Assembly (NCBI RefSeq): GCF_014904695.1
Contig: NZ_JACXXN010000011.1
Span: 1 to 64,000 of the forward strand
Source of the DNA: Nostoc sp. MG11
GTDB lineage: Bacteria; Cyanobacteriota; Cyanobacteriia; Cyanobacteriales; Nostocaceae
Direction: 5' to 3'
Length of the DNA stretch: 64,000 nucleotides
Below are positions 33,248 through 63,920 of the stretch, piece after piece. Below the pieces are notes generated by a model. That model was not told where the DNA came from. It made no database searches and saw only the letters and a program-made list of their open reading frames with translations. How positions within the stretch are numbered: the stretch's first letter is position 1; every line of letters begins with the position of its first letter. Made by a program: the position numbers and the translations under genes.

Positions 33248-34648
33248 TTAGGATATCAAAGGAACTGCGTCATTATTGCTAGAAGATGTATCAGTAGCGA
33301 TGTCTGGGTTGGGTATAGCCAACACAACTCCATCAACAACATCGGGTAGTTCATCTTCCACAAGTCGTAAACGGGGAAAAAAGTAAGCAATACAGGTTAC
33401 TGAAATAGCAAATATTCCCATGATTATAAATAGGAGTCCCATACCGCGACCTTTACCAACACCAATTATTTGTCCGATGCTTCCAGCTAAAAAACCATCA
33501 GTAGCCATTAAGGGTTCAAAAACTTCTGCCAAGGGCGCGATCGCAATATAGCCTAGAGGTAGACCTGCGGCTTCGATCGCTCCTTTTATAGAAAAAACTC
33601 TACCCTGCACTAATGGTTCTACTTTAGACTGAAAAATAGCTTGCGTTGAACTAGCAATTATTGGTCTTATCAAGAAGAATAAAAAGACGCCAACAATAAA
33701 GACAGCAACAGAAGGTTGCAAACCGGCGAGAAGAAGAGACACACCCGTGAGGAGCATACAGCCATATATCATATTCATATTACGCTGTAGACCTCCCCAG
33801 ATACCAATCAGCAAGCCCCCTACCAAAACAGCAACGCCAAAGAGCGAAAGAATAGTCCCCAAAACTGTTACGGGAGCGAAAGATAACACTAAGGGTATGG
33901 TGATCACCTGAACACCTCCTACAAGGAAAATGCTAAAAGCTGAGATGATTAACACTCCTAACAGTCCTGGTCGAGCAACTAAATAGGTCAATCCATAAGT
34001 TGTTTCTTTTAGAAAAGAACTTCCCTCTGCAACAACGGGATTGCTGGTTTTAGGGAACCGAAGCAGGAAGAGGATAGCAATACCTAAAAATACGGTGGTT
34101 AAGTGAAGCACGATAATTCCTTGGAGAGAAATTATGCCTAGTAGGACACCTCCTAAAGGTGGTGCTACGAGCCGCGCAGTGCCGTTCATAAAACTCAGCA
34201 TTCCATTCGCCCGCCCAAGGTGCTGTTTTGGTACTAATAAGGTTATGGAAGCGATGAAAGCGGGTATCTGAAAAGCCACGAAGATAGCGCTGAAAGTATT
34301 GGCTAAGTAAATATGCCACACTTCCAACCGACCGATGATAAATAAAATACCGATCGCCACTGTTGCCAAAGTTGCAAATAAATCGCTGAGAATCATTGTC
34401 CATCTACGATCCCACCGATCCACTAATAAACCAGCTATGGGTGCAAGTAAGATGAGCGGTAAAGTATTTGCAAGGGTAATAAAAGCAAATTGGGTGACAG
34501 AACCAGTATGTTCATAAACCCAAACATCTAAAGCAAATGCGGTGATGCTGCTACCAATAGATGCAATGAGCTGTCCTACCCAAACAATAATAAACAGTTT
34601 CATCTCACGAAAAATAGTCAGTGGCGTTTTTTCTGTACTTGCCAACAT
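33248..34648 (-). CDS. major facilitator superfamily transporter
   Basis: 466 residues with twelve hydrophobic segments. The RWDRRWTMILSD loop between segments 2 and 3 and LDVWVYEHTGS point to the MFS_3/enterobactin-exporter-like group. Such proteins export siderophores, macrolides and other secondary metabolites. AGGAG lies six bases before the ATG. It is 23 bases after the glycosyltransferase gene and thus co-transcribed. It may export the product of the locus to its right. Confidence 0.85.
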   Translation of the reverse strand: MLASTEKTPLTIFREMKLFIIVWVGQLIASIGSSITAFALDVWVYEHTGSVTQFAFITLANTLPLILLAPIAGLLVDRWDRRWTMILSDLFATLATVAIGILFIIGRLEVWHIYLANTFSAIFVAFQIPAFIASITLLVPKQHLGRANGMLSFMNGTARLVAPPLGGVLLGIISLQGIIVLHLTTVFLGIAILFLLRFPKTSNPVVAEGSSFLKETTYGLTYLVARPGLLGVLIISAFSIFLVGGVQVITIPLVLSFAPVTVLGTILSLFGVAVLVGGLLIGIWGGLQRNMNMIYGCMLLTGVSLLLAGLQPSVAVFIVGVFLFFLIRPIIASSTQAIFQSKVEPLVQGRVFSIKGAIEAAGLPLGYIAIAPLAEVFEPLMATDGFLAGSIGQIIGVGKGRGMGLLFIIMGIFAISVTCIAYFFPRLRLVEDELPDVVDGVVLAIPNPDIATDTSSSNNDAVPLIS

Positions 34649-34671
34649 GATTAACTCCTAAATAAAGCTTT

Positions 34672-35919
34672 TTATAATTGCTGATAGTGGTGTAACAGCT
34701 TTTGGGCCTGATAATCCCAAGCAAACTTTTCAACGGCTCGCTGCTGTCCAGCTTCTCTCATTGCAATTCTGAGATTGTCATCTCCAAGCAGCCGCAGAAT
34801 AGCTTCGGCTAAGGCATCTGCATCCCCGCGTTCTACCAATAACCCTGTTTTCTCATCCTCCACCAGTTCGGGAAAAGCACCCCCACGCGTGGCAATAACA
34901 GGTAATCCCATTGACATTGCTTCGACAATCGGCATCCCAAATGCCTCATTCCAGACAGATGGAAAAATAAATATATCTGCTTGCTGATAGTACTCAAATA
35001 GCTCGAAGTGCGGAATTTTTCCGAGAAAAAAAACTGAACTAGCTGCGGTAGAAGTAAGTCGATTTTGCAAATGCGATCGATAGCTACCTTGGTAATAAGG
35101 ACGAAGATTCTGAATTTGAGGGTCTTCTCTATCTAATGTGTACCACGGCACTAGGGCGGTTTCTGAACCAACGAGTTTCAACTGTACTTGGGGATAACGA
35201 AACACTACTTTGTTAAAGGCATCAATTAAAACGTGTACGCCTTTTTCCGGTGAAATTCTGCCCACAAAAAGGATTTGTTTAATATCTTTTTTATTAGTTT
35301 TTTTATTGTCGTGTTCATTAGAAATAGTAAAGTGATGAATATCTGCGCCGTTGTAGATGGTTTGGCTTTTAACGTGAGGCAAGTATTTACGAACCTGATT
35401 TGTCAGGTAATCGCTGCATCCAATTACTAAATCGACTGACTTAAGACACTGTTCAACCATTGCTGGATCGAATAATGGCAGAAAATCGCTATGTATATGT
35501 AAGACTATTTTGGCTTGAGGATTATAAGCACGCATGAGCGGAACAAATTGAAAAACAATGTTTATATGAATCACATCACATTGCTGCACTTGAATATCCT
35601 GGGCGACTTTTCGGTAAAAGTCGCAGAAAAATAATTTGGATGCATAGAAGGGACGTTTAGGATTTGAGAGGTTCCAGCTATCAAGAAAGTTTAAGGGTTC
35701 TAATACTTTATCGAGCCATGAGTCTGGAATTCGGCGATAAGTTATGCCGTCTTCGTAGTATTCCAATTCTTGATGGGAGCCTTTTGAGCCATAAAATAAA
35801 ACTTCGTGACCAGCACGAGCTAAACGCAGCGCTAAAGCGTATGATACTAGGCGTATTCCTCCAGTTTTGGGTGGCTCGGCTAGGGTGACGGGGTAATCAA
35901 AGAAGGCGATTTTCATCAT
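34672..35919 (-). CDS. GT4-family glycosyltransferase
   Basis: 415 residues, GT-B fold. N-terminal ETGG-like PPKTGGIRLVSYALALRLARAGHEV; C-terminal nucleotide-sugar half with FVGRISPEKGVHVLIDAF, then EAFGMPIVEAMSMGLPVIAT and the E-x7-E retaining motif, and ELVEDEKTGLLVERGD. Soluble or peripheral at the membrane. Donor and acceptor cannot be told. The position next to an MFS exporter and in line with the peptide locus suggests glycosylation of a metabolite; polysaccharide synthesis is the alternative. Confidence 0.88.
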   Translation of the reverse strand: MMKIAFFDYPVTLAEPPKTGGIRLVSYALALRLARAGHEVLFYGSKGSHQELEYYEDGITYRRIPDSWLDKVLEPLNFLDSWNLSNPKRPFYASKLFFCDFYRKVAQDIQVQQCDVIHINIVFQFVPLMRAYNPQAKIVLHIHSDFLPLFDPAMVEQCLKSVDLVIGCSDYLTNQVRKYLPHVKSQTIYNGADIHHFTISNEHDNKKTNKKDIKQILFVGRISPEKGVHVLIDAFNKVVFRYPQVQLKLVGSETALVPWYTLDREDPQIQNLRPYYQGSYRSHLQNRLTSTAASSVFFLGKIPHFELFEYYQQADIFIFPSVWNEAFGMPIVEAMSMGLPVIATRGGAFPELVEDEKTGLLVERGDADALAEAILRLLGDDNLRIAMREAGQQRAVEKFAWDYQAQKLLHHYQQL

Positions 35920-36255: not shown

Positions 36256-37089
36256 ATGAAAAACATTTGTTTACCATCCGGTCAATTGATGCCAGTATTG
36301 GGAATGGGGACTGCGGGACTGGGTGAAGCGATCGCTCAGCGTGAAAATGAGATTGCTGCTTTGTGTCGTGGGTTAGATTTGGGAATGACGTTGATTGATA
36401 CCGCAGAAATTTACGGTGATGGTGGGGCGGAAACGTTAATTGGCGAAGCGATCGCTAATTGTCGTTCATCAGTCTTTCTTGTGAGTAAGGTTGCTCCTCG
36501 CAATGCAACTGGGCAAGGGGCGATCGCAGCTTGTGAGAATAGTTTACGACGGTTGCAGACGGATTATCTCGACCTTTATTTGCTGCATTGGCGGGGGCCT
36601 GTATTGTTATCAGAAACTTTGGCAGCATTTGAGACGCTGAAACAATCTGGCAAGATTCGAGATTATGGCGTTGGCAATTTTGATGTTGAGGATATGGAAG
36701 AGGCCACTGCTTTACCCGGAGGTGAAGCCATTGCGACAAATCAAGTCCCTTACAATTTGCAACATCGTAATAGTGAGTGGAAGTTGTTATCCTGGTGTCG
36801 GCAAAGAGGAATCCCTCTGATGGCGCATTCGCCTTTGCTACAAGGCGAACTACTCAAACATCCGAAATTGCAGTCAATTGCTCAACAGCGCGGGATAACA
36901 GTTGCACAGGTGGCGATCGCTTGGTTGTTACATCAAGAGGTGATAGTTTTTCCCAAAGCTAGCAGTATCGCCCACGTTGAACAGAATCGAGCTGCTCTAG
37001 ATTTTAAGTTCACTACAGAAGAACTGAATGCTTTGGATGTTGCTTTCCCCCCACCATCTGCATCGATTGCCCTGCTTGAGAATTGGTAA
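36256..37089 (+). CDS. aldo/keto reductase
   Basis: 277 residues, (beta/alpha)8 barrel. Catalytic tetrad visible: D in LIDTAEIYGDG (Asp and Tyr), Lys in FLVSKVAP and His in LYLLHWRG. NADPH contacts in the C-terminal VIVFPKASSIAHVEQN. The GMTLIDTAEIYGDGGAETLIG start is like YeaE/DkgA-type enzymes reducing dicarbonyls and aldehydes. The only plus-strand gene in the 33-64 kb region; its link to the metabolite locus is uncertain. Confidence 0.87.
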   Translation: MKNICLPSGQLMPVLGMGTAGLGEAIAQRENEIAALCRGLDLGMTLIDTAEIYGDGGAETLIGEAIANCRSSVFLVSKVAPRNATGQGAIAACENSLRRLQTDYLDLYLLHWRGPVLLSETLAAFETLKQSGKIRDYGVGNFDVEDMEEATALPGGEAIATNQVPYNLQHRNSEWKLLSWCRQRGIPLMAHSPLLQGELLKHPKLQSIAQQRGITVAQVAIAWLLHQEVIVFPKASSIAHVEQNRAALDFKFTTEELNALDVAFPPPSASIALLENW

Positions 37090-37195: not shown

Positions 37196-38146
37196 TCATT
37201 TAGAACCGTTAAATCTTTTTGCTAAATCTTCAGTTTTTTGCTTGTAAAATTCCTTGGTTAGCATTGGCGGGTATTTAGGAGATTCGCCAGCATCTAAGCA
37301 AGTCTCAATACAGGCAATTTCTGTATCATCGCCAGGAGAGAGAAAGAAAGCTAAGGAGTATCTTTCTGGAATACGGGCATTGGCTGGCATAAGTACTCGA
37401 TGTTTGGTAGCACGGAGTTTATCGTTTGTCCATCGCTGCATGACATCTGCGATAAAGACTATGGGTGTGTTCGGGAGTGGGGGCGCAGCAATCCATTCTC
37501 CGGCATTAGTGCAGACCTCTAGCCCACCATTGTCATCCTGAAAGAGTAAGGAGAGACTGCCCCAGTCTGTATGTTCCTCAAAGCGTGCTTCTCCAGGTTG
37601 TGGAGGTTCAGATACTTCATAGTAGCGATGTAAAAGCCCATAGTCTGCTTGCTGAGGATGGCGATCGCTAAAGTAAGATTCTGGTAAGTTTAGGGCAATG
37701 GCGATCGCTTTGAGAATGCGATCGCCTGCATCATGACAAGCTGTGAATAATTGCTGCACAGCATCACGAAAAGTAGGATGGTCTGCAAGGTGTTGATGAA
37801 CCTGCTGCGCCACAGTGGAATCTGTATCTATCTGTTCTGTTAAAACGGCTTCACCGAATACGAAGGCCTCCCGAAAGTCACCATTATATTTAGTGTAAAA
37901 GTATCCGAGAGCCGCGCCGTCCTTCCAGGCGAGTTGTCTTTTTTCTGCTTCTGGTAGCGCAAAGAAGCCATTAGCATTAGTAAAGGCTTGGTCAATTGCA
38001 TTTTGGGGAACACAATTTTTTAGGTAAAAGCAGCCAACCTCTTGAATTGCACGTAATAGTTGGTCAGCAGTAAACTGATGGAAATCAAGGATAGGAATCT
38101 GCGTCGAAATTGCAGGCTGTTTTTCAAGTTCTTGAATGGAGTTCAT
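37196..38146 (-). CDS. 2-oxoglutarate/Fe(II) oxygenase, isopenicillin N synthase-like (paralogue 1)
   Basis: 316 residues. DIOX_N-type start ISTQIPILDFHQF, then the Fe(II) facial triad H192-x-D194 (EEHTDWGSLS) and H249 (ATKHRV), with R262 (RYS) for 2-oxoglutarate. Paralogues in this window at 38252, 50903 and 51988 share the layout and the QRWTNDK...A-x-x-HRV segment. This copy lacks the VGD-x-xAK insert after DFH, and its YFYTKYNGDFREAF replaces the RGY-type region, so it is the most divergent. Such enzymes hydroxylate, desaturate or cyclise small molecules. Substrate unknown. Confidence 0.87.
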   Translation of the reverse strand: MNSIQELEKQPAISTQIPILDFHQFTADQLLRAIQEVGCFYLKNCVPQNAIDQAFTNANGFFALPEAEKRQLAWKDGAALGYFYTKYNGDFREAFVFGEAVLTEQIDTDSTVAQQVHQHLADHPTFRDAVQQLFTACHDAGDRILKAIAIALNLPESYFSDRHPQQADYGLLHRYYEVSEPPQPGEARFEEHTDWGSLSLLFQDDNGGLEVCTNAGEWIAAPPLPNTPIVFIADVMQRWTNDKLRATKHRVLMPANARIPERYSLAFFLSPGDDTEIACIETCLDAGESPKYPPMLTKEFYKQKTEDLAKRFNGSK

Positions 38147-38251: not shown

Positions 38252-39259
38252 TTAACTACGTCCGTATTTTGTGGCTCGGTCATTGGTTCTATTCAGAAGA
38301 TGATCGCCGACATAAGTTGGGGCATATTTGTGAGATTTATCTGCTTTTAAACAACTTTCCAGACAAGTGACTTCCACATCGTAATCAGGAATCACAAAAA
38401 AGCTAAATGAGTACCTTTCTTTCACTGCTTGAAAATTAGTCGGTACTGAAACTCGATGAGGTGCGGCGCAAAATTTATCGTTTGTCCATCGTGACATCAT
38501 ATCTGCCGGCATTACCAAAACACTATCAGGAACCGAAGTGGTGGTGATCCATTCTCCTTTTGGTGTGTATACCTCTAGCCCTCCTCCTTGATCCTGAAAT
38601 AGTAAGGTGATACTGCCTAAATCAGTGTGTTCATAGAAGCGAGTTTGTCCTGTTTTTGGAGCCTGAGAGATGTTGGGGTAGTAATTGAAAACCCCGGCGT
38701 GGTTTTGCTGAGAATGTAAATTAGTAAAATATGAACTTGGTAGTTGTAAGGCGATCGCTAATGCTTCCAACACACTCAAAGCACATTCCTGGCTAGCCAA
38801 GAAAAATTGCTTCATGATTTGACGAAATTCCGGCGGATTTTGCGGCCATTGATTAGGAACATCCAACGCCTCTGCATAACTATCAACCCCAACTTTGTTT
38901 GGATCAAGTTCATTAGCAAAACTAAAGGACTCGTGTAACTGTCCTGGTTGATTACCAATGAACATCTTCTCAAATGGTATGTACCCCCGACTACGCCCGG
39001 TTACTGCTGAAGCGACTTTCTGTTTTTCCTCTAATGGGAGTGCAAAAAACCTCTCGGCTTGAGCAAAGGCTTGGTCAATTGAAGTTTGGCGAACACCATT
39101 TTTTAAGTAAAAACAGCCCACCTCTTGAATAGCACGAGAGATTTGGTTAGCAACTGCTGCTTTGGCATTGGTGTCACCCACAATAAATGGATGAAAGTCA
39201 ATAATTGGTATCTGTGTTGAAACAGTTGTTTGCTTTGCAAGTTCGTTGATTGAAGTCAT
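38252..39259 (-). CDS. 2-oxoglutarate/Fe(II) oxygenase, isopenicillin N synthase-like (paralogue 2)
   Basis: 335 residues from the ATG at 39259 (MTSINELAKQ, AGGA upstream), aligned with the starts of the paralogues; a start 63 bases upstream is less likely. Iron ligands H211, D213 and H268; 2-oxoglutarate arginine R282. STQIPIIDFHPFIVGDTNAK at the N-terminus and SRGYIPFEKMF for the substrate region. FYEHTDLGSITLLFQDQGGGLEV is textbook for the family. In line with paralogue 1, about 100 bases apart. Confidence 0.88.
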   Translation of the reverse strand: MTSINELAKQTTVSTQIPIIDFHPFIVGDTNAKAAVANQISRAIQEVGCFYLKNGVRQTSIDQAFAQAERFFALPLEEKQKVASAVTGRSRGYIPFEKMFIGNQPGQLHESFSFANELDPNKVGVDSYAEALDVPNQWPQNPPEFRQIMKQFFLASQECALSVLEALAIALQLPSSYFTNLHSQQNHAGVFNYYPNISQAPKTGQTRFYEHTDLGSITLLFQDQGGGLEVYTPKGEWITTTSVPDSVLVMPADMMSRWTNDKFCAAPHRVSVPTNFQAVKERYSFSFFVIPDYDVEVTCLESCLKADKSHKYAPTYVGDHLLNRTNDRATKYGRS

Positions 39260-39348
39260 CGTTAAAAAATTCCTAAAAATTTGATGATTTTCTCTTGGGT
39301 AATGGTTAGCGTTTCTGTACAAATAGAAAAGCTTTTATAGAAAATGAA

Positions 39349-40032
39349 CTATTCATCACGCATTAAGTCGCAAGTCTGACATAGTGGAATTGCATGAAAT
39401 TCATACTCATTGGTTCTACCAAGGTAATCTTTAACAGAACCAACAATACCTGTTCCGTTCACATCTATACAACAGGTATTGATACTTCCATCCCATAAGA
39501 CTACAACTCGCTTTTTAGTCTCAAAAATGCACGGCTTATACTGTTCTAGAGTACTAGTTAAAGTTCGACTCGATGTAGTTTTAGAAGCAACTTGTCCAGC
39601 CCAGTCATGCTTTTCCTGTTTATGAGGATTATAGGTATACACGATTGATAAAGGAATAGAATTTTCCTGAAACATTGCTTGAATACGCTCTTTCTGTCCT
39701 GCAAGATGTTCTGAGAGATAAATATCACGCACTCCTAACTCAGACAAGCGCCATGCCATTGCCTCATCAAGTAGTATACCGTTGGTTATAAAATTGCACT
39801 CAATTCCCTTCGTTTTAGCATAGGAGATAAACTCAAATATTTCTGGGTGAAGTAGGGGTTCTCCAAAATTATTAAGAAATAAATCTTTTTGTCCACATTG
39901 AATTGCCAATTCAACAACATCTACAAATGTAGAAAATGACATATTTCCTTTCGGTCTACTTTGAGTAGGGTGAGGACAATAAGAGCAAGTTAGATTACAA
40001 AAATTGGAAATTTCAACTTGATAGATATGCAT
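39349..40032 (-). CDS. radical SAM protein with SPASM-like C-terminal cysteines
   Basis: 227 residues from the ATG at 40032, which has AGGAG nine bases upstream. The 4Fe-4S/SAM motif is C-x3-C-x2-C (NFCNLTCSYC) near residue 12, with GEPLLHPEI as the SAM-binding GGEP-like motif. The C-terminus has INTCCIDVNGTGIVGS and CQTCDLMRD, candidate ligands of an auxiliary cluster as in SPASM proteins. These often modify peptides (sactipeptide, PqqE type) or sugars. It is next to two propeller genes with similar N-termini, 160 bases away, which is the only clue to a substrate. Confidence 0.83.
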   Translation of the reverse strand: MHIYQVEISNFCNLTCSYCPHPTQSRPKGNMSFSTFVDVVELAIQCGQKDLFLNNFGEPLLHPEIFEFISYAKTKGIECNFITNGILLDEAMAWRLSELGVRDIYLSEHLAGQKERIQAMFQENSIPLSIVYTYNPHKQEKHDWAGQVASKTTSSRTLTSTLEQYKPCIFETKKRVVVLWDGSINTCCIDVNGTGIVGSVKDYLGRTNEYEFHAIPLCQTCDLMRDE

Positions 40033-40191
40033 GAGGTTCAACTCCTAATAAATCCATAAATGTATTTAGAATAACCACTGATTTTTGTACAATTCTCTTT
40101 ACTAAATAACTCTCAAAAGTGATGTTATTGAAAAGGCAATTTTGCTACTTAAAGGAACTCGGCTTTTTTGTTCTAACTCTGAATCGATGTT

Positions 40192-41100
40192 CTAATACCA
40201 CTTGTGATACACAGCGCGATCGCCACCCGCAACAAAGGTATCAATCCGGTTCAGGCTCCGAGAAACCGCAGCCGGTGCAGAAGTACAGTAACCACCGAGA
40301 TGCTGCCAATCACCCCAGATGGAACCATCCCATGTCTTGCGATACATTGCACCATCACAGCCAACAGTAAAAATATCTAGCCGATTTTCAGCATTAGAAG
40401 TTGCGGCAATACCGTACTGGCAATACCCTCCCAGGTTTTCCCAACTACTCCAAGTTGAGCCATCCCACCCCTTGTGGTATATCGCGCCATCCCCCCCCAA
40501 AACAAAGGTATCAATGCAGTCCGTCCCGCGAGAAACCGCAGCCGGTGCAGCAAAACAGTAACCTCCGAGATTATCCCACTCACTCCACGCTGAACCATTC
40601 CAACGTTTGTGGTACATTGCGCCATCAATGCCAACAGTAAAAATATCTAGCCGATTCTCACCACCAGAAGCGGCGGCGACACCATAGTGAGAGTATCCTC
40701 CAAGGTTTTCCCAACGGCTCCACCTTGAACCATCCCACCATGTGCGGTATGTGGCGCGATCGCTACCCAAAACGAAGGTGTCAATGCGGTTTAGCCCCCA
40801 AGAAACCGCCGCTGGCGAGGAAATACAGTATCCTCCGAGTCTTTGCCAATCGCTCCAAGTTGAGCCATCCCACCACTTATGCCACAGAGGGCCAATACTA
40901 GCGGTGATCAAAACATCTAGCCGATTTTCTGACCAAGAAGCGGCTGTTACACCATACTGACAGTATCCATCTAAATATTCCCCATCCGTGGAAAATATTG
41001 GCATATCCGCTGTTGCGGCCGGACTCATTACCGGAAATGGCATACCTCCAGTGGATTGATCATGAGAAATTGCTGCGGTAGTTGAATAACTTGTTGTCAT
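40192..41100 (-). CDS. six-repeat beta-propeller lectin-like protein (PLL/DUF346 type), copy 1
   Basis: 302 residues. After a 40-residue Ser/Thr/Pro-rich leader (MTTSYSTTAA...), six repeats of about 45 residues follow, each with LGGY...N-R-x-D-x-F...D-x-A-x-Y-x-K-x-W-x-G-S-x-W-x-x-W. Repeats alternate between a (S/C)QYGVAAxSxxENRLD type and a CxxxPAAVSxGxNxIDTF type. This is the seven/six-bladed fucose-lectin-like propeller family that binds sugars. No signal peptide is evident. GAAGAGAAG lies before the ATG. Close relative of the next gene. Confidence 0.85.
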   Translation of the reverse strand: MTTSYSTTAAISHDQSTGGMPFPVMSPAATADMPIFSTDGEYLDGYCQYGVTAASWSENRLDVLITASIGPLWHKWWDGSTWSDWQRLGGYCISSPAAVSWGLNRIDTFVLGSDRATYRTWWDGSRWSRWENLGGYSHYGVAAASGGENRLDIFTVGIDGAMYHKRWNGSAWSEWDNLGGYCFAAPAAVSRGTDCIDTFVLGGDGAIYHKGWDGSTWSSWENLGGYCQYGIAATSNAENRLDIFTVGCDGAMYRKTWDGSIWGDWQHLGGYCTSAPAAVSRSLNRIDTFVAGGDRAVYHKWY

Positions 41101-54809: not shown

Positions 54810-54841
54810 AGTTGTACTCCAGGAAACTTCTTTTACCTGCC

Positions 54842-55762: not shown

Positions 55763-55853
55763 TAAACTCCTTGCAAAAGTCCCGATTATATACTCTTTCT
55801 CTGAGCCTCTGCGCCTCTGCGTGAGATAAATAAATACTTATGTAGGAGGTCTA
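55763..55853 (-). mobile_element. MITE-like element, family 2, at the 3' end of the NRPS gene
   Basis: Ends TAAACTCCTTGCA (55763-55775) and TGTAGGAGGTCTA (55841-55853) with CTCTGCGCCTCTGCGTGAG inside; in minus orientation it matches the copy after bioF, including GGACTTTTGC. The NRPS stop codon (TAA, 55838-55840) lies within it. A further CACGCAGAGGCGCAGAG block at 55664-55690 is inverted relative to it, so the whole 55660-55835 stretch can fold back. Confidence 0.6.
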
Positions 55854-58800
55854 CTGTTTAGTAAATTGCGGATAGCTTCTGCTTGCTGAACTATAGTAGG
55901 TTTTTCAAATAGGAAAACTAAGGGTAATTCTATTTGCAAAGCTTTTTGTAATTTGTATGTGAGTTGCAGAACAAGAGCGGAATGTCCTCCAAGGTCGAAG
56001 AAGTTATCTTGAGTACTAATATGTTCTAATCCTAAAACCTCTTTCCAAGTAGCTAATATAACTTCCTCCATAGGGTTGGCAGGTTCAATAAAATTGTTTT
56101 GAGGAGTTTTCGTAGCTATAGGTAATTTGGAATTTTGAATTGGTAAACTTTTTTCTTCTGATAAAAAGGGAAGTTCACTAATACGTTGGTCAGGATTAGA
56201 AACAATATATTCAAGCAATCTTTGAAATATCGTCACCATTCTGGTAATAGTAGTAGCTTCAAACAAATCGGTTTTGTAGACTAAAGCGCCTTCAATTTCC
56301 TCTGATGTTTCTTGGAGTGTAAGATTTAAATCAAACTCTGCTGTATCTTTGGTATCGGTTGCAATAAATTCCTCTTTTAAAGTCAAATTTGCCAGTTTTA
56401 AATCATCTTCTGGAGTGTTTTGAAAAACAAACATTACCTGAGCTAGCAGTGTGTAACTATCTCTAACTGGTTGCAGTTCTTCTACTAGTTTGATAAAGGG
56501 CATTTCCTGATGTGTATACACTCCTAAAGCCACTTCCCGCACTCGCCGCAGTAGTTCTCGGAAGGTGGGATTGCCTTCTAAGTTGGTGCAAAATGGTAGT
56601 AAATGGACAAAGAAACCAATCAATCCTTCTGTTTCTGGGCGGTTACGATTGGCAACGGTGCTGCTAACAATGATGTCTGGTTGCCCTGTGTAGCAGAAAA
56701 GTAATGTCTTGAGTGCTGCTAACAAGGTCATAAATAGGGTTACGCCTTCCTGCTGACTTAATGCTTTGAGTGCTTTGGTTAAGTCTTTGGAAATTACCAA
56801 AGGTTGACGCGCACCTGCGAAGGTTCGCACTGCTGGACGTGGATGGTCAGTTGGTAGTTTCAAGACTGGAGGGGTAACACCTAAGTGTTGTTTCCAGAAT
56901 TGCATCTGTGATTCTAAAACTTGCCCTTGTAACCATTGCCGTTGCCAATTAGCAAAGTCTGCATATTGGATAGGTAACTCGGTTAGCGGGGAGGGTTTGC
57001 CTTGAGAAAAAGCTTCGTAAAGGGTTGCCAGTTCTTGAGTCAAGACGCTAAAAGACCAACCGTCGGCGACAATATGGTGTGTAGTGACAACCAGCAAATA
57101 CTCGGTTTCACTCAAACGCCAAAGTTTACTCCGCAATAACGGCCCTCGCGCCAAATCGAAAGGCTGTTTAATCTCCTTCTCAGCTTGTCGTTTCGCTTCA
57201 GTTTCCGGGATGTCTTGTGAGTCTATTACGGCGAAGTCAAAGACAGGCTCAGAGGAAATTGTATAAACCACTTGTCCGTTCTCAACCTTAAAGGTAGTTC
57301 GCAAGGTTTCGTGTCGTCGCACAATTTCTTTTAAACTCTGCTCTAACGCCTTAACATCTAGTGAACCCGTCACGCGATAGATTAGCGGCAAGTTGTAAAC
57401 AGGATTGCCAGGATAGAATTGCTCAAAAAACCAAAACTCTAATTGAGTTAAGGAAATTGGCCGTACTCCGTCACGCCAGACGGCTTTTAATGGTATGATT
57501 TCTGCTGAAAGTTCTTGCTGACTAGCCGCCTCAACTGTTCTAGCTAAAGTTGCGATCGCAGGTGATTCAAATAAACTTCGTAGAGGTAATTCTATCTTAA
57601 ATGCTTTGCGTGTCAGAGAAATTACCTGGGTAGCAAGTAAAGAATGTCCTCCCAAATTAAAGAAGTTGTCGTAAATCCCAACTTGTTCTAACCCCAAAAC
57701 ATCCCTCCAAATACCTGCCAAAATTTCTTCGGTGGGAGTCCGGGGTGCAACAAAAGTTTGAGCTAATTCCGGTCGGCTGGTCGTCGGTTCGCTTAAAGCG
57801 CGACGGTTAACTTTACCGTTGGGTGTCAGAGGGAATGACTCCATCTGTACAAAAGCCGATGGAATCATGTAATCTGGCAACTGGTCTTGAAGAAAATTAC
57901 GCAACTGTTCGACGGTGATTGTCTGTCCTTGAATTGGTACGAAGTAAGCGACTAAATATTTTTCTCTGGCACTTTCCCCAAACACCTTAGCGATTGCCTG
58001 GTTAATTTGGGGATGTTTGCTCAAGACTGCTTCAACTTCACCAAGTTCAACCCGAAAACCCCGGACTTTTACTAAATCGTCTATCCGTCCCAAAAATTCA
58101 ATATTGCCATCTGGTAAATATTTAGCTAAGTCGCCAGTTTTGTATAGCCTTCTGCCTTCTGTCTCCGCAAAGGGATTTGGAACAAATTTTTGCTCTGTCA
58201 AATCTGGACGGTTGAGGTAGCCATGAGCTAAACCATCACCACTAACGTAGAGTTCACCAGGAACCCCAATCGGCACAGGCTGGAGATTGCGCTCTAATAG
58301 ATAAACTTGCACATTAACAGCAGGCTTACCAATTGGTGGATAAATTGGCCACTCTTCTGGTTTGTCGCTAAAAGTATAAGCTGTGACTAAATCTGCTTCT
58401 GTGGGGCCGTAGAAATTATAGAGTCTACAATTCTCCAAACGCTGAAACAGCTTAATCATTGGTTGCGTAATCTGGAGTTGTTCGCCACAGGCGATCGCTT
58501 CTCTAATGTTCTTAAATAGATGTTCTTCTTCTCCGTATATTTCTGCTAATTGTTGCCATAAGGTGACGGGAAGAAAAACTTTGGCAATTGGTTCAAATGC
58601 AAGTAACTGAATTAATTTATCTAAATCTTTGCGATCGCTTTCGGGAATCATATACAGCGTTCCACCCAAACCCCACGCCGCAAACATTTCGTGATAGCTG
58701 ACATCAAAGCTGAGGGAAGCAAACTGAAGAACACCCACGCCTGTTAACATCTTTGCCTGATGGTGTTCGATTAAATTGGTGAGCGATCGATGGGGGACAA

Positions 58801-60706
58801 GAGTACCTTTAGGAGTTCCTGTAGACCCAGAAGTATATATTATGTAAGCTAAATTATCAGCTTTTACTTCAACTTGTGGATTAAATTCAGCTTCTTCGCC
58901 GATTTCCTCCCAATCATCATCTAACACAATGAGATGATGAGCAAAGTTGCCATTCAGCAACGATTTACAACGTGTTTGAGTTAAGACGACCGCTGCTTGA
59001 GAATCGCTGAGCATAAATGCTAAACGCTCTGGGGGATAAGTAGGGTCAAGCGGAACACAAGCGCCCCCAGCTTTGAGGATTCCTAATATGGCAACTGCCG
59101 CCTCTAGAGAGCGTTCTAGACAAATCCCCACGGGTACATTTGGTTTGACGCCCAAACGTTGTAGATGGTGCGCTAATTTATTGGCACGTTGATTTAACTC
59201 TAAATAGGTCAATTGTTGGTTGTCATACACCACCGCCACAGATTCGGGTGTTTTTTCAACTTGCTGCTCAAATAATTGATGGATGCAATAATTTATGGGA
59301 TGGACTGCTTGGGTAGCATTCCACTCTACTAAGAGTAAATCTTGTTCTGCTGGTGTGAGTAGCGGTAGTTCGCCTGCACTGCGATGAGGTAACGCAACAA
59401 TCCCCTGTAACAGCGTGAGCAAATGACCAATCATGCGGTCAATGGTATCTGCGTCAAAGCGATTGCGATCGTAGTTGATTTTGATTACCAGTTCTTCACC
59501 GGGAATTGCCACCACCGTTAAGGGATAATTTGTTTCTCCCAGCGCTTGGCGATCGCTTATTCTCAAATTTCCTGGAAGTGCTTGTAGTGTGGCGTTTACA
59601 GGATAGTTCTCAAACACGACAATGCTTTCAAACAAAGGTTGATTCCGAGGAATTTCACTCACGCCTTGAATATCTACCAGTGAGATGTATGAATACTGCT
59701 CTCGTTCTATATGCTCTTGTTGCAATTGCGCCAGCCAAGGCAACAAATCGGTTGTTTCAGGGATTTTTATCCGTACAGGTAGGGTATTAATAAACAACCC
59801 CACCATCGACTCTACACCAGATAAGTTATGAGGACGACCAGACACCGTTGCCCCAAACACCACATCAGACTCACCACTGTAGCGACTCAGTAACAATGCC
59901 CAAGCTGCCTGCACCAATGTAGAAACGGTAAGATGATGCTGTTGGGCAAAAGATTTTAAGTTAGCAGTTGCCTCAGCTGATAGATGTTGGTGTCGAATAT
60001 AACTGGTTTGCTTTTGGTGAGTAGTCTGCCCTACTGCTTGTTCCACAACCAAAGGTGTAGGAGCAGTAAAAGCCTCAAGAGTTCGCCGCCAAAATCCCTC
60101 TGCACTAGATTTGTCTTGCTGCTGTAACCAATTAATGTAGTCTCGGTAAGGGCGAGATGGAGCTAAATATAATTGTTGATTGTTGTTTATAGAATCGTAA
60201 AAAGCAAAGATTTCTTTGAAGAGAATCGGCCAACTCCAACCATCAAGTAATATATGATGAAAGCTCCAGACAAAATGATAAGTTTCGTCTGCTAACCGAA
60301 ATAAAACAAACCGCATCAAGGGAGATTTGTCAAGTTCAAAACTTTGCTCTTTATCTGTATTCAAGAAAGAATTAATTTGCGATTGCTGTTCCTCAGTTGA
60401 GAGCAAATGCAAGTCTCTGTTAACCCAAGGTAAATTAACTTGTTTACGCACTACTTGCACTGGCTGTTTGCGGTTATTCCAAACAAAAAGAGTCCGTAAA
60501 GCCGAGTGTCTCTGCACCACCTGTTGCCAAGCTTGCTCAAACGCGCTCTTGTTTAATTCGCCATGAATAGTGAAGCGAAACTGCTCAAAGTATATTCTTG
60601 ATTCAGGCTGATAGAGAGTATGAAATAGCATCCCCTGCTGCATTGGCGAAAAGGGATAAATGGCTTCAATTTCTTTAGTTTTATTTTGATTTTGTAGAAC
60701 TACCAT
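55838..60706 (-). CDS. non-ribosomal peptide synthetase, C-A-T-C-T
   Basis: 1622 residues. Condensation 1 about 12-450 (HHILLDG 150-156). Adenylation about 475-975: LKAGGACVPLDPTYP, YTSGSTGTPKG (624-634), NFYGPTE, YKTGDLAKYLPDG, GRIDDLVKVRG, NGKVNRR. Carrier 1 with phosphopantetheine Ser1022 (LGGHSLL). Condensation 2 about 1080-1530 (HHIVADG 1210-1216). Carrier 2 near 1560-1610 (LGGHSAL). No epimerase, thioesterase or reductase. The specificity code extracted by eye is D668 V669 H672 A708 I738 C740 F765 L773 V774 K964; I cannot match it to a known amino acid. The starting and ending domains imply partner synthetases elsewhere. The second C-T pair without an A domain suggests loading in trans or release by condensation. 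The final residues RPPT come from a MITE end. Confidence 0.95.
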   Translation of the reverse strand: MVVLQNQNKTKEIEAIYPFSPMQQGMLFHTLYQPESRIYFEQFRFTIHGELNKSAFEQAWQQVVQRHSALRTLFVWNNRKQPVQVVRKQVNLPWVNRDLHLLSTEEQQSQINSFLNTDKEQSFELDKSPLMRFVLFRLADETYHFVWSFHHILLDGWSWPILFKEIFAFYDSINNNQQLYLAPSRPYRDYINWLQQQDKSSAEGFWRRTLEAFTAPTPLVVEQAVGQTTHQKQTSYIRHQHLSAEATANLKSFAQQHHLTVSTLVQAAWALLLSRYSGESDVVFGATVSGRPHNLSGVESMVGLFINTLPVRIKIPETTDLLPWLAQLQQEHIEREQYSYISLVDIQGVSEIPRNQPLFESIVVFENYPVNATLQALPGNLRISDRQALGETNYPLTVVAIPGEELVIKINYDRNRFDADTIDRMIGHLLTLLQGIVALPHRSAGELPLLTPAEQDLLLVEWNATQAVHPINYCIHQLFEQQVEKTPESVAVVYDNQQLTYLELNQRANKLAHHLQRLGVKPNVPVGICLERSLEAAVAILGILKAGGACVPLDPTYPPERLAFMLSDSQAAVVLTQTRCKSLLNGNFAHHLIVLDDDWEEIGEEAEFNPQVEVKADNLAYIIYTSGSTGTPKGTLVPHRSLTNLIEHHQAKMLTGVGVLQFASLSFDVSYHEMFAAWGLGGTLYMIPESDRKDLDKLIQLLAFEPIAKVFLPVTLWQQLAEIYGEEEHLFKNIREAIACGEQLQITQPMIKLFQRLENCRLYNFYGPTEADLVTAYTFSDKPEEWPIYPPIGKPAVNVQVYLLERNLQPVPIGVPGELYVSGDGLAHGYLNRPDLTEQKFVPNPFAETEGRRLYKTGDLAKYLPDGNIEFLGRIDDLVKVRGFRVELGEVEAVLSKHPQINQAIAKVFGESAREKYLVAYFVPIQGQTITVEQLRNFLQDQLPDYMIPSAFVQMESFPLTPNGKVNRRALSEPTTSRPELAQTFVAPRTPTEEILAGIWRDVLGLEQVGIYDNFFNLGGHSLLATQVISLTRKAFKIELPLRSLFESPAIATLARTVEAASQQELSAEIIPLKAVWRDGVRPISLTQLEFWFFEQFYPGNPVYNLPLIYRVTGSLDVKALEQSLKEIVRRHETLRTTFKVENGQVVYTISSEPVFDFAVIDSQDIPETEAKRQAEKEIKQPFDLARGPLLRSKLWRLSETEYLLVVTTHHIVADGWSFSVLTQELATLYEAFSQGKPSPLTELPIQYADFANWQRQWLQGQVLESQMQFWKQHLGVTPPVLKLPTDHPRPAVRTFAGARQPLVISKDLTKALKALSQQEGVTLFMTLLAALKTLLFCYTGQPDIIVSSTVANRNRPETEGLIGFFVHLLPFCTNLEGNPTFRELLRRVREVALGVYTHQEMPFIKLVEELQPVRDSYTLLAQVMFVFQNTPEDDLKLANLTLKEEFIATDTKDTAEFDLNLTLQETSEEIEGALVYKTDLFEATTITRMVTIFQRLLEYIVSNPDQRISELPFLSEEKSLPIQNSKLPIATKTPQNNFIEPANPMEEVILATWKEVLGLEHISTQDNFFDLGGHSALVLQLTYKLQKALQIELPLVFLFEKPTIVQQAEAIRNLLNSRPPT

Positions 60707-60852: not shown

Positions 60853-61647
60853 TTAAAAAGCTGCTGTAGATAATCCGCCATCAACTGGAATAGTTACACC
60901 AGTGATATAACTAGCGCATTCTGAACTGAGAAAAGCAACTAAATTGGCAACCTCATCAGAAAGACCCCGACGACCGATAGGAATGGTATTATCTATACCT
61001 GCTGCGATCGCATCAATATTTCGGTCTTCCTTTTGGGCAAATACCTTTAGATATTCTCTATGTCTTGGTGTATCAATAATACCAGGATTAACAGAGTTAA
61101 CTAACACATTCCACTTGGCAACTTGTGTAGCTACAGATTTGGTAAAGTTGATTAATGCTGCATTCGCTACTCCTGATTTAATTAAACGAGGGGAAGGTTC
61201 TTTCCCGGATGTGCCAATAATATTTACAATTCTCCCCCATTGCTGATTTTTCATAATAGGTAAAACCAGATTGGTCATGCGGATGTAGCCCATTAATTTT
61301 CCTTCAAACACAGTTCCCCAATCTTCATCAGATAGGTTTTCTACTGCGACGCTGGAAAATTTAGCTCCATCAGAATTATTTACCAAAATGTCAATTTTCC
61401 CAAATTGATTGAGAGCTAACTGCACTAATTTTTCAGAGTCAATTGCCTTTTGAACATCAGCCAAGGAGGTAATAATTTTAGCTGGAGAATTAACTAAACT
61501 TTGATAGGCTTGTTCTAATCGGTCTGCATTTCTCCCACAAATTATTAAATGACAACCTTCTGCTGCCAGTTTTTGAGCGATAGCATAACCAATGCCAGCA
61601 CTTCCTCCTGTCACTAAAGCTACTTTACCTGTTAGTCCTAAATCCAT
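60853..61647 (-). CDS. short-chain dehydrogenase-like protein lacking the Tyr/Lys catalytic pair
   Basis: 264 residues, FabG-like fold with an intact nucleotide motif VTGGSAGIGYAIAQ (12-25) and CGRNADRL. At the Y-x3-K position the sequence is S158-GVA-N162 (IKSGVANAALINF), and NNAG is NNSD. Catalysis by the classical mechanism is therefore unlikely, although some related SDRs share this SGVANAAL motif. It directly follows the bicupin gene (12 bases), the place of the reductase in bacilysin- and aeruginosin-type precursor modules, so a role in that pathway is inferred. The ending GVTIPVDGGLSTAAF is typical. Confidence 0.85.
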   Translation of the reverse strand: MDLGLTGKVALVTGGSAGIGYAIAQKLAAEGCHLIICGRNADRLEQAYQSLVNSPAKIITSLADVQKAIDSEKLVQLALNQFGKIDILVNNSDGAKFSSVAVENLSDEDWGTVFEGKLMGYIRMTNLVLPIMKNQQWGRIVNIIGTSGKEPSPRLIKSGVANAALINFTKSVATQVAKWNVLVNSVNPGIIDTPRHREYLKVFAQKEDRNIDAIAAGIDNTIPIGRRGLSDEVANLVAFLSSECASYITGVTIPVDGGLSTAAF

Positions 61648-61659: not shown

Positions 61660-62361
61660 CTAGGTTGCAGTTAGCGATCGCGCAGTTATTTTACTAAAAG
61701 AAGCATCTTGATCAGAGAAATAAGAACAAGGTGGAATCAAAATTTTTACCAAAGATACTACTTCATCAGAGGAATTATATCCTCCACAAAACACATCAGA
61801 TGGTGCATAATAAATATTACCATAAGCTAGCTGTTGCTGTTCTTCTCCCACAGACATGAGCAATTGACCATTGAGGATTATTCCCATTTGTTCGCTAGCA
61901 GATTGGTGCATTGGAATTATACCTCCTGGCGGAATTTCAGTAATTGCAATTTCAAACCAAGAAGCAACAATAGACTGGCATAAAAAACCCGTAATATCAT
62001 CTTTTGTAGGCGATACCTTCAGAAACACTTCGTCAGCTTTTTCTGAAGAATTTATGATGCGTTTTACATCGAATACTAGCGTTGTTTCTGGAAAAACATT
62101 TACAGAACCGTGCGGAACATAAGCATTTGCAATATAGGCTTGTTGCAGCGGCTCAATAATTTCTTTAATTCCGTTGACGTTCATTTGTAAACGACCAGAA
62201 ATTATCATCCCCATCTGACTTTCTAAATGTTCATGTAGTGCAAAGTTAGCTCCAGGAGCAAGATATACTAATTGAACAAGCGTGTCTTGACATTCATAAG
62301 CTATTAACTCTACATCGGAATTAATTTTTGTGTTTTTGGGAGTTGGAAAAAATTTAGACAT
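61660..62361 (-). CDS. bicupin, BacB/AerE-type isomerase of the prephenate-derived amino acid pathway
   Basis: 233 residues, two cupin barrels, as in BacB (235). Metal site 1 is H43-x-H45-x3-Q49 and H84 (LHEHLESQMG, VPHGSVN), exactly the BacB pattern. Barrel 2 keeps H152 and E157 (MHQSASEQMG), but the last ligand position is SDVFCGG without histidine. BacB moves the double bond of dihydro-hydroxyphenylpyruvate after the BacA reaction. The gene overlaps the BacA-like gene by eight bases, strong support for that role. AerE of aeruginosin clusters is the cyanobacterial counterpart. Confidence 0.87.
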   Translation of the reverse strand: MSKFFPTPKNTKINSDVELIAYECQDTLVQLVYLAPGANFALHEHLESQMGMIISGRLQMNVNGIKEIIEPLQQAYIANAYVPHGSVNVFPETTLVFDVKRIINSSEKADEVFLKVSPTKDDITGFLCQSIVASWFEIAITEIPPGGIIPMHQSASEQMGIILNGQLLMSVGEEQQQLAYGNIYYAPSDVFCGGYNSSDEVVSLVKILIPPCSYFSDQDASFSKITARSLTAT

Positions 62362-62962
62362 GATTTTCTGCTATTTTTTTATAAAAAATCGACCAACTCA
62401 TAGGAATTTTTCCATAAATGGAAATAAACTCCAAATCATAAGCGTCAACAGCGTTTGCATTAGTAATAGCTAGAGTAGCTAAACCCTGCTGTACTTGAAT
62501 TGCTGCATCACTAGTAGAAAGAGACAAATCAACCTGAATTTCTGATTGGTCTTGGGAGTCTGGTAAGAGTCTTGACAACAAAGGTAAGGGCGCAGGATGG
62601 GTAACAAGTCTAGCTCCTTTAAAAATTACCTCTGTATTTTTCTTTTTAGCCAATCCATAAACTGGAGTCGGATAGATAAAAATGAAACCTAAATCAAAAC
62701 TTGGCTCCATATAAAACTCATTAATCAATTGATAAGCATGAGGAACTAGAGCCAAATCTACTTTGTCTTGCAGCAAAGCTTTTTTAACATCTGGAAAGCT
62801 ATCAAATAACTGAATTTCTCCAGTCAATTGTTCTGACTCTAATTGTTTGACTATATAGCTTGAAGCATAGTCACTACTAGTACCACTAGGCCCCAATGTC
62901 CCTATAGTCAAAGTTTTTGCAGGAGGAATAGGAGGTCGAAATTCAATCGAAAACTTCAGCAT
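62354..62962 (-). CDS. prephenate decarboxylase, BacA/AerD type
   Basis: 202 residues from the ATG at 62962 (BacA is 204). Clear BacA features: TLGPSGTSSDYAS (22-34, compare LGPEGTSSEYAA), LVPHAYQLINEFYMEP (72-87), PTPVYGLA, the LVTHPAPLPLLSRLL region, LAITNANA and the ending SIYGKIPMSWSIFYK. The enzyme decarboxylates prephenate without aromatisation, giving the dihydro-hydroxyphenylpyruvate used for anticapsin, tetrahydrotyrosine and the Choi residue of aeruginosins. Overlap with the cupin gene confirms a two-step module. It is the best single clue to the product of the locus. Confidence 0.9.
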   Translation of the reverse strand: MLKFSIEFRPPIPPAKTLTIGTLGPSGTSSDYASSYIVKQLESEQLTGEIQLFDSFPDVKKALLQDKVDLALVPHAYQLINEFYMEPSFDLGFIFIYPTPVYGLAKKKNTEVIFKGARLVTHPAPLPLLSRLLPDSQDQSEIQVDLSLSTSDAAIQVQQGLATLAITNANAVDAYDLEFISIYGKIPMSWSIFYKKIAENHV

Positions 62963-63014
62963 AGTTTGAACCAAGGTCGTATAGGAGAAAAAAGAAAGTT
63001 AAAATTACTAATTT

Positions 63015-63920
63015 TTAAATATCTTCTGCGCCAAATATTAATTTTCGGTCTATATATTGAGATTTACTCTGACTTAAAATCAATGCAGTTAGTACTAAAA
63101 CCGTGCCAATCAAACCGCGTACTCCAAACTTCTCGCCGAGTAGCCAAAAGGAAAAAACGGACGTGAGTACCGGATCGAGGGTACACAATAGCGCCGCCTC
63201 GGAAGCTGAAATCCATTGCTGGCCTATTGTTTCTAACCAGATAGTGCCAGCAGTTCCTACCAGACTGAGGTAGAGGATAATGCCATAGTTATTGCTCAGA
63301 GCCTCAAATTGCCCGACCATCTCCGGTGCTGCCCAGACGGCGCTTAACACTGCTACAATCCACAGTTGGATGGCCGTCAGGGATAGAGTTGAGTGGCGTT
63401 GTGCCGTTCCCTGGAGTACCAGCATATAAACCCCGTAAATGAACGTTTCGCCAAATAACAACAAGTCACCTATACCTAGAGAGCCGTTTTCCCAGCACAT
63501 AATGCCGATACCTATGAGGGAAACTATGGCGGCGAGTACAGTTTTAAGCAGCAAGGGTTGACCGAATAACGCTGCTAACAGGGGTACAATGATCACATTT
63601 AGGCTAAAAATGAATCCTCCTCGGTTGGCATTGGCGGTTTCTAGCCCGATTGCCTGGAAGGCAAAGCAAGCGAAAAGTAGAAGTCCTAAAACTGTGCCAT
63701 CGCGTAATATTTGAGCGTTTAAGGAGCGTAAATATGGGGTAAAGATCGCTGCTGCAATGGTGAAACGGCTGGCGGTAAGTACAGCTGGCGAAAAGCTAGT
63801 GACTGCATCTTTAGTAAGTGGGAAGGTCGTCGCCCATATTAAACTGACGAGCGCGATCGCAATTATGCCCTGAATATGGAGGGCGTTTTGCGTGGATTGA
63901 TTGCGGTCATCTAGTTTCAT
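63015..63920 (-). CDS. EamA/DMT-superfamily transporter
   Basis: 301 residues with ten membrane segments in two EamA repeats (ALVSLIWATTFPLTKDAV start of repeat 1; LSLVGTAGTIWLETIGQQWI and EAALLCTLDPVLTSVFSFWLLGE in repeat 2). Members export amino acids or metabolites. First gene of the minus-strand run within the window, 52 bases before the BacA-like gene, so it may export the product or a precursor. The window ends 80 bases upstream; the locus may continue beyond. Confidence 0.85.
   Translation of the reverse strand: MKLDDRNQSTQNALHIQGIIAIALVSLIWATTFPLTKDAVTSFSPAVLTASRFTIAAAIFTPYLRSLNAQILRDGTVLGLLLFACFAFQAIGLETANANRGGFIFSLNVIIVPLLAALFGQPLLLKTVLAAIVSLIGIGIMCWENGSLGIGDLLLFGETFIYGVYMLVLQGTAQRHSTLSLTAIQLWIVAVLSAVWAAPEMVGQFEALSNNYGIILYLSLVGTAGTIWLETIGQQWISASEAALLCTLDPVLTSVFSFWLLGEKFGVRGLIGTVLVLTALILSQSKSQYIDRKLIFGAEDI

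Follow-up and report, generated by a model that had tools for sequence, protein, structure and literature searches.

We analysed a 64,000-nt window of the Nostoc sp. MG11 genome (8.41 Mb), i.e., bases 1-64000 of contig NZ_JACXXN010000011.1, which runs on to 200,721; all coordinates below are contig positions. The right part of this window carries a biosynthetic gene cluster that covers contig 33248-76611, i.e., about 43 kb, and reaches beyond the right window edge. We identify this locus as a suomilide/banyaside-type (suo/bsl) cluster with a probability of about 0.9. Suomilides are sugar-decorated peptides that inhibit digestive enzymes such as trypsin, and the product encoded here is most likely a suomilide congener without a new scaffold. 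While the cluster type is already known, new are a gene set linked to the azabicyclononane residue (Abn), a comparison of its loading and timing, an atom map that relates 2-carboxy-6-hydroxyoctahydroindole (Choi) to Abn, and a BtrN-like reading of a radical S-adenosylmethionine (SAM) protein.

Gene content of the cluster

An earlier note on this DNA had set the limits of a 30-kb peptide locus at 33248..63920. These limits are too narrow, since the cluster continues to 76611 and an ABC transporter gene (29042..31057, +; ABC_membrane_2 and ABC_tran; AerN-like, a name taken from aer clusters) stands at its left border. The genes listed in that note are present at their positions, which holds for a nonribosomal peptide synthetase (NRPS) with condensation (C), adenylation (A) and carrier (T) domains in the order C-A-T-C-T, two short-chain dehydrogenases/reductases (SDRs), four oxygenases, an MBOAT protein, a carbamoyltransferase set, a GT4 glycosyltransferase, MFS and EamA transporters and a radical SAM protein. 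In the following, genes lie on the reverse strand (-) and are assigned by Pfam unless stated otherwise.

The precursor genes stand close together. A BacA/AerD-type prephenate decarboxylase gene (SuoD; 62354..62974) overlaps by 8 bases with the gene of a BacB/AerE-type bicupin (SuoE; 61660..62361), and SDR 1 (60853..61647) takes the AerF/SuoF position. Among PDB sequences, the bicupin matches a cupin protein (5zbe, E=3.9e-57) as well as BacB (3h7j, E=2.7e-29), so that it does not fall into an unrelated cupin family, an outcome that would have spoken against the BacA-BacB module proposed in the earlier note. That is, the BacB part of the module stands. The BacA-like protein has no matching chain in the PDB and its prephenate dehydratase match stays below the curated Pfam cut-off; the gene is therefore named from its place beside the BacB-type gene. 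Next to this group follow the NRPS of SuoG type (55838..60706, by domain matches; code DVHFICFLVK), SDR 2 (54842..55618) and an ABC substrate-binding protein of family 5 (53016..55088, true start probably near 54800). On the other side lies an EamA exporter (63015..63920). Beyond the window and on the same strand, we find an AerC-type Rieske oxygenase (63993-66245, with its 3' end 63993..64000 still inside), an APS kinase (66388-66966, from matches beyond the window), an Aer3-position gene assigned by place only, as it has no Pfam match (67111-67980), and the 2861-aa loading NRPS (68026-76611; Pfam/NCBIfam). The extension of the contig that the earlier note had proposed as a check thus adds a further NRPS. 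The locus carries AerB, AerG, AerE and AerF homologues and, as judged by place, an AerD homologue, i.e., the set by which PMC8609519 delimits the aeruginosin family.

The remaining genes would, by family, serve oxidation, sugar decoration and export. Four Fe(II)/2-oxoglutarate (2OG) oxygenases, all DIOX_N/2OG-FeII_Oxy proteins, are arranged in two pairs: H1 (51988..52962) with H2 (50903..51892), and H3 (38252..39322) with H4 (37196..38146). Beside H4 lies an aldo-keto reductase gene (36256..37089, +), the sole divergent gene of the block as had been noted before; its protein is DkgB-like, with diketogluconate reductase as best NCBIfam match below the cut-off. An MFS exporter (33248..34648, collinear in relatives) and a GT4 glycosyltransferase of SuoI/BslX type (34672..35919), which has homologues also in Choi-type clusters and probably places the hexose on the ring oxygen, form the left end. 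The radical SAM protein (39349..40041), whose nearest solved structure is BtrN, shows a CxxxCxxC motif and a further, twitch-like cysteine set near its C-terminus. It is followed by two beta-propeller lectin-like proteins, namely propeller 2 (40192..41100; NCBIfam CV39L lectin family, below cut-off) and propeller 1 (41227..42198; PLL/PHL type by family and PDB sequence matches).

The carbamoyltransferase (45437..47275) is accompanied by an SxtJ family protein (45024..45431, PF19588), a 54-aa DUF5989 membrane protein in SxtK position (44860..45024) and a GDSL-like/SGNH protein in SxtL position (43563..44849). Another SGNH/GDSL-ALGX-type protein (42251..43327) is a probable O-acyl transfer enzyme. 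An MBOAT O-acyltransferase (48051..49604) has an SGNH-like partner (49606..50760), labelled from the earlier note and its position, which adjoins the MBOAT gene in all ten Abn clusters introduced below. A putative methyltransferase (47302..48144) is a candidate for the hexose 6-O-methyl group and has no match in a 60-kb stretch of the Nodularia-genus genome G292. The methyltransferase and SGNH genes of the earlier note are hence all present, with weaker labels than given there: the methyltransferase and 43563-44849 score below the Pfam cut-offs, and 49606-50760 has no Pfam match.

Relation to suomilide and banyaside clusters

Two respective clusters are published. The suo cluster for suomilide A of Nodularia sphaerocarpa UHCC 0038 comprises two bimodular NRPSs, an FkbH loading module, SuoD/E/F, suoH1-4, a carbamoyltransferase, a glycosyltransferase and an MBOAT protein (PMC8609519), and the bsl cluster of Nostoc sp. 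KVJ20 is the second case, with suomilides B-E, G and H as products (PMC10157211, PMC13122637) and an expression that increased under nitrogen limitation (PMC10157211). To obtain comparable loci, genome contigs were scanned with oxygenase H1, which gave 29 loci. Eight of these, each in a separate genome, are 84-95% identical over nearly the whole query (Komarekiella delphini-convector, Nostoc sp. B(2019), Komarekiella atlantica, Scytonema NIES-4073, Aff. Roholtiella LEGE 12411, Nostoc LEGE 12450, Nostoc KVJ20 and Nostoc FACHB-152). Of 388 genomes of the order, 31 carry BacA according to a search with this protein, including G347 (the same Roholtiella) and G292, which is taken as Nodularia. The Abn sample consists of ten clusters, i.e., the eight H1 genomes, G292 and the window.

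In six other genomes, each of the 28 compared cluster genes keeps its place in the order, the aldo-keto reductase being the one gene that is reversed; this shared arrangement is far beyond chance. In KVJ20, whose contig we take as the bsl locus, 19/19 genes up to the contig end show the same order and strand pattern at a protein identity of 79-94%. Collinearity also holds for 24 of the 28 genes in Roholtiella and for 23 in G292, our stand-in for suo, which lacks radical SAM, methyltransferase, SxtL-position GDSL, EamA and APS kinase genes. That is, the genes stay together in the related genomes examined instead of being scattered singly, and the comparison with suomilide-type clusters that the earlier note had called for supports its reading of a glycopeptide that is aeruginosin-like and resembles banyaside and suomilide, with genes for acylation and carbamoylation. 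MBOAT, glycosyltransferase and a carbamoyltransferase accompanied by SxtJ/K-like proteins are all present in the window cluster.

Other cluster types, labelled here by gene content, share part of this arrangement. Two varlaxin-like clusters (G111, G035) have NRPSs, Choi genes, Aeap genes, glycosyltransferase, MBOAT and ABC transporter 73-90% identical to the window, but lack the blocks from aldo-keto reductase to methyltransferase and H1-H2 with the flanking genes kept; they hold an extra A-domain reading frame (32% identical). Eight aeruginosin-865-like clusters (G383, L051, L052, L054-L058) have a Choi NRPS at 72-76% identity, MBOAT and partner in 7/8 cases, and one H-type oxygenase place at the locus, compared to four in Abn clusters.

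The earlier note had considered oxygenase, propeller and radical SAM content foreign to aeruginosin clusters and had proposed that the locus may make something new. The oxygenases do not make the cluster new, since they are the suoH1-4 already published for suomilide (PMC8609519). A new scaffold could still be argued from the radical SAM and propeller genes, which lack close orthologues in 14 other BacA-positive loci. The words 'radical SAM', 'lectin' and 'propeller' are absent from the main texts of two of the three suomilide papers (PMC8609519 and PMC10157211). The KVJ20 contig, however, carries the same oxygenases, radical SAM gene and both propeller genes in the same order, KVJ20 is a suomilide maker (PMC10157211), and two Abn clusters do without the radical SAM gene. 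A new scaffold is thus very improbable, and the suomilide/banyaside-type identity is preferred. Two points weigh against this identity: the comparison relies on G292 and on a KVJ20 draft contig that stops short of the NRPS genes, in place of the deposited suo genome (CP060140) and bsl record (MT269816), and the cluster in this strain is known from genes alone, with no metabolite seen.

With regard to building blocks, the loading NRPS consists of an FkbM methyltransferase, an FkbH domain above the curated cut-off, carrier and sulfotransferase domains, a C-A-T module and a second condensation-like domain (also TIGR01720), which we take to be an epimerisation domain in line with the published scheme. 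Its loading part fits 2-O-methyl-3-sulfoglycerate (Mgs). For the A domain that follows, we compared the codes of the nine Abn clusters with the gene in view (in KVJ20 it lies beyond the contig). Roholtiella shows DAWFLGNVVK, presumably a Leu code as expected of a banyaside maker. The window code DAFFLGVTFK is found in 6/9 clusters and is the suomilide-type Ile code, while Scytonema and FACHB-152 have DALWMGGVFK, the allo-Ile code of varlaxin (PMC13122637 for both). Going by its code, position 2 of the product would be Ile, as in suomilide, and not Leu, as in banyaside. In the same three strains, this A domain is only 58-61% identical to that of the window (Scytonema, L074-L076; FACHB-152, L088-L090; Roholtiella, L091-L093). 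Since these clusters are otherwise collinear and mostly 80-94% identical to the window, the low value suggests an exchange of single A domains. By its sequence, the C-A-T-C-T NRPS adds a proline-like (Choi-type) residue, with a terminal C-T that serves release on an amine. By analogy to published suo/bsl work, Aer3- and AerC-type enzymes would make Aeap from agmatine, and GT4, MBOAT/SGNH proteins, carbamoyltransferase and methyltransferase would dress the hexose. The predicted product is Mgs-D-allo-Ile-Abn-Aeap with an acylated, carbamoylated 6-O-methyl hexose. As to nomenclature, bslA and bslJ denote opposite NRPSs (Ile vs. proline-like/Abn module) in section 3.4 of PMC10157211 and in the Biosynthetic Proposal of PMC13122637.

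The cluster borders were assessed in the same sample. The ABC transporter gene lies about 4 kb or less from the MFS gene in 8/9 other Abn clusters (the Roholtiella contig stops before) and is near it in G111, G035 and G383, too. Between transporter and cluster, a long protein (31073-32779) has a GUN4 domain (Pfam) at its C-terminus; a GUN4-type gene is near the cluster in some Abn genomes and was not found there in LEGE 12450, KVJ20 and FACHB-152. Further outside, the gene at 26087-28192 fuses a concanavalin/laminin-G-like domain to a patatin-like phospholipase domain. On the right, the gene that follows the cluster (77659) is on the opposite strand and stands beside the cluster in only 3/9 other Abn clusters.

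Genes linked to Abn and the timing of its formation

Next, we compared gene content over 24 loci, i.e., the 10 Abn clusters and the 14 other BacA-positive loci. H1-H4, the aldo-keto reductase and both propellers are found in 10/10 Abn clusters (in Roholtiella, the reductase is on a separate contig) and have no close orthologues in the 14 other loci. Distant oxygenase homologues occur in five of these, at 34-50% identity in G231, G383, G126 and G084, and, with an edge-cut copy, in G266, which has two at 36-39%. Whole-genome searches give the same picture. With E<=1e-60, the aldo-keto reductase is found in 10/10 Abn genomes and 0/15 others; among the 388 genomes of the order, 41 have a match at this threshold, with at least 87% identity only in the three Abn genomes of this sample and 69% for the next. 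H4 (E<=1e-25) matches in 64/388 genomes, with at least 90% only in the same three; its runners-up are paralogues of Abn genomes (up to 48%) and proteins of other genomes, which reach up to 46% over most of the protein and 53% for short ones. Propeller 1 (E<=1e-10) is present in 12/25 genomes, namely in the ten Abn genomes with a copy of at least 83% and, weaker, in G383 and G084.

In a tree of 52 oxygenases, H1, H2, H3 and H4 form four clean groups of ten, so that the ancestor shared by the Abn clusters probably had the complete set of four. The metal-ligand motif HTD..H..RYS is intact in all 40 copies of the 10 clusters. Five single oxygenases that are placed next to H2 (L051, L054-L056, G383) sit in Choi-type clusters with MBOAT, which look like those of aeruginosin-865 makers. 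Aeruginosin-865 has a 5,6-substituted Choi (PMC10143770), and an ancestral role of the H oxygenases as Choi-ring hydroxylases would fit the tree placement. The AerH-type homologues of two other Choi-type clusters (G126:C1:4008471-4009322, G231:C222:29983-30831) show HYG or HRG in place of HxD, while H1-H4 of Abn clusters keep HxD. HxG is the ligand pattern of Fe/2OG halogenases. We dropped these homologues as candidates for new halogenases, given that AerH is already termed a halogenase (PMC10744761).

Carbamoyltransferase, SxtJ and one SGNH gene are likewise found in 10/10 Abn clusters, but recur in one non-Abn locus, i.e., the BacA locus of G273 (L110-L111), at 83%, 57% and 55% identity, respectively. 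This locus has no Abn oxygenases, which rules out the carbamoyltransferase as Abn-specific; the product of G273 is possibly a carbamoylated Choi peptide.

The gene set raises the question of when Abn is made. PMC13122637 has Abn recruited by module 1 of the second NRPS, which PMC10157211 puts forward as a hypothesis, and PMC8609519 words the proline-like residue as 'a Choi-like compound'. The SuoG code DVHFICFLVK is shared by 6/9 Abn clusters and four clusters without Abn genes (G035, G111, G342, G383). Over the 1622 aa of SuoG, the nine Abn sequences show two fixed differences to G035 and G111 (A-domain residue 484 and one in a linker) and none to all four non-Abn clusters. As a control, we counted fixed differences to G035 and G111 among the columns invariant in Abn rows for all shared proteins. 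The rates are 0.2% (2/1140) for SuoG and 0.1% (2/1821) for the loading NRPS; BacA, BacB, both SDRs, Rieske, APS kinase and Aer3-position proteins have no fixed difference, and the substrate-binding protein has 1.2%. For the other half, we find 7.0% (ABC), 2.9% (MFS), 3.6% (GT4), 7.5% (MBOAT) and 6.0% (MBOAT partner). At sequence level, the peptide-making half is hence indistinguishable between Abn clusters and G035/G111, while the sugar, acyl and export half is distinguishable. In the NRPS tree, G035 is nearest to the FACHB-152 Abn NRPS (100/100) and G111 joins with weaker support (88/84). The Abn NRPSs are not one clade: grouping the Abn rows, which were fixed by gene content ahead of the tree, is rejected by the approximately unbiased (AU) test (p 1.1e-6).

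Given a near-identical SuoG in sister clusters without the Abn set and Abn NRPSs that are not one clade, the NRPS probably loads Choi and Abn would form after loading, a reading we favour with some reserve. The alternative is that Abn is built as a free amino acid and then selected by the first SuoG module. It is stated for the proline-like module in PMC13122637, PMC10157211 and a review, and a free amino acid could be a substrate of the four oxygenases. This is hard to reconcile with the 'Choi-like compound' of PMC8609519, with only 0-2 fixed differences in code, C domains and carrier domains relative to clusters that lack the oxygenases, and with non-Abn NRPSs nesting among Abn NRPSs, such that we consider free-Abn loading rather unlikely.

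Loading of Choi has difficulties of its own. In three of the nine Abn clusters, the code deviates at one position (DVHFICLLVK), and a promiscuous A domain that takes both Choi and free Abn is possible. The label of G111 and G035 as Choi producers follows from their gene content alone, and outside its locus the G035 genome encodes a distant oxygenase homologue (42%). Furthermore, fixed differences, tree and control are not independent, i.e., recombination of the right half would give all three; even so, this half would then be functional whether or not the Abn genes are there.

Candidate route to Abn and sugar configuration

The Abn ring is known by NMR as C16-C17(OH)-C18(N)-C19H2-C20(O-sugar)-C21H2, with C16 bound to C13 and C13 to C12; carbonyl C15 links N14 (on C13) to an oxygen on C16 (PMC10157211), and the 17-OH is free (PMC13122637). 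The N11-C18 bond is our reading of the tricyclic structure. We enumerated maps of the Choi skeleton atoms onto Abn with nitrogen and alpha carbon fixed. Two maps have lowest cost, each with one bond broken, one formed and the Choi oxygen kept. One is a neighbour shift, i.e., C3 moves from C3a to C4, by which the sugar site C20-O derives from Choi C6-O; the other requires a cross-ring move, after which the Choi oxygen is found on C16. Atom mapping thus suggests Abn to be Choi with one 1,2-carbon shift, where the exact shift is tentative and falls somewhat short of even odds. Against it stands that the rearrangement is topological only. The shift may already be drawn in Figure 5 of PMC10157211 or in Pluotno and Carmeli 2005; among the literature matches listed on azabicyclononane/Choi biosynthesis, only the known aeruginosin review touches Abn. 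Abn could also arise without a carbon shift, such that the side-chain carbon stays, nitrogen is joined at the meta position and the para oxygen is lost. This equally breaks one bond and forms one; however, it has to remove the Choi 6-oxygen and to add an oxygen at the sugar-bearing carbon (edit cost 3 vs. 2), and we regard it as improbable.

Based on the neighbour shift, the following route is conceivable. BacA, BacB and SDR 1 would make Choi, which the SuoG-type NRPS would load. After loading, the four Fe/2OG oxygenases may provide 3a-hydroxylation and 4-oxidation to 3a-hydroxy-4-keto Choi. An alpha-ketol-type shift of C3 from C3a to C4 would leave a C16 hydroxyl beside a C17 ketone, and the aldo-keto reductase could reduce this ketone to the C17 alcohol that is observed. 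Carbamoylation of the C16-OH by the carbamoyltransferase and amination at C13, the beta carbon, would yield the cyclic carbamate. Among PDB sequences, H1 matches thymine dioxygenase best; TropC and an entry under the title ring expansion oxygenase SpoC rank lower. TropC acts through a 1,2-shift. A role of the carbamoyltransferase in the Abn carbamate is supported by suomilide A, whose 35- and 36-hydroxyls are free (PMC10157211) while its cluster retains the enzyme (PMC8609519).

The radical SAM gene is found in 8/10 Abn clusters but not in G292 and Roholtiella, in 12/27 sequence sets when weak matches are counted, and in 1/340 genomes of the order sample with E<=1e-30. Its cysteines C15/C19/C22 and C171/C190/C221/C224 are invariant in 8/8 copies, and we read the C-terminal ones as a twitch domain. 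Best PDB sequence matches are BtrN (1.9e-6, residues 4-122 only) and cytosylglucuronate decarboxylase (3e-4), both in the N-terminal half; the predicted structure (mean pLDDT, i.e., per-residue confidence, 48) was too poor and not used. BtrN acts on a cyclitol alcohol. With regard to the sugar, suomilide A from Nodularia and the banyasides are described with glucose, while KVJ20 makes alpha-galactosides (PMC13122637). The published H-35 couplings are 11.2 and 8.4 Hz for suomilide D vs. 3.4-3.9 Hz for B, C and E (Table 1 of PMC10157211), which fits glucose for D and galactose for B, C and E; the stereochemistry of D was drawn by analogy (PMC13122637).

It is possible that the radical SAM protein sets the sugar configuration as a C4' epimerase after glycosylation, a small correlation by which KVJ20 combines radical SAM gene and galactosides and the Nodularia-genus G292 is without the gene. 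PMC10157211, on the other hand, also wrote glucose for KVJ20 compounds, and such labels are perhaps unreliable. The KVJ20 mixture of galactose and glucose could as well come from a glycosyltransferase that accepts either UDP-sugar, with the radical SAM protein doing something else. We give this nearly even chances: it agrees with a PDB match limited to the N-terminal half and with unsure printed 'glucose' labels, as the KVJ20 compounds of PMC10157211 became galactosides in PMC13122637, but it conflicts with a glycosyltransferase 87% identical in G292 despite the missing radical SAM gene and with the glucose described for Nodularia suomilide A. The combined proposal, i.e., Choi is loaded, a removable set of oxygenases, reductase and carbamoyltransferase turns it into Abn via ketol shift and cyclic carbamate, and the radical SAM protein inverts glucose C4 to galactose, is speculative and unlikely to hold in every part.

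For the propeller, nine PDB sequences match with E<=0.01, eight of which are of Photorhabdus PLL/PHL type (best 2.5e-37), i.e., it matches PLL-type seven-bladed propeller lectins by sequence similarity. Photorhabdus PLL/PHL lectins bind fucose and O-methylated sugars (PMC6943638), and the KVJ20 products carry an O-methyl hexose (PMC10157211). By analogy, our guess is that the propellers may hold the glycosylated product.

The value of the locus, a well-conserved member of a known cluster type without a new scaffold, is comparative evidence on the Abn step. From the comparison of Abn and sister clusters, only a few genes are left as candidates for Abn formation, a selection of Abn by the assembly line itself is unlikely, and the atom map from Choi to Abn is testable by labelling. 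If true, the Choi-to-Abn set could serve to study a transferable late-stage skeletal edit, and with the radical SAM protein a peptide pathway would contain a sugar epimerase that acts after glycosylation.

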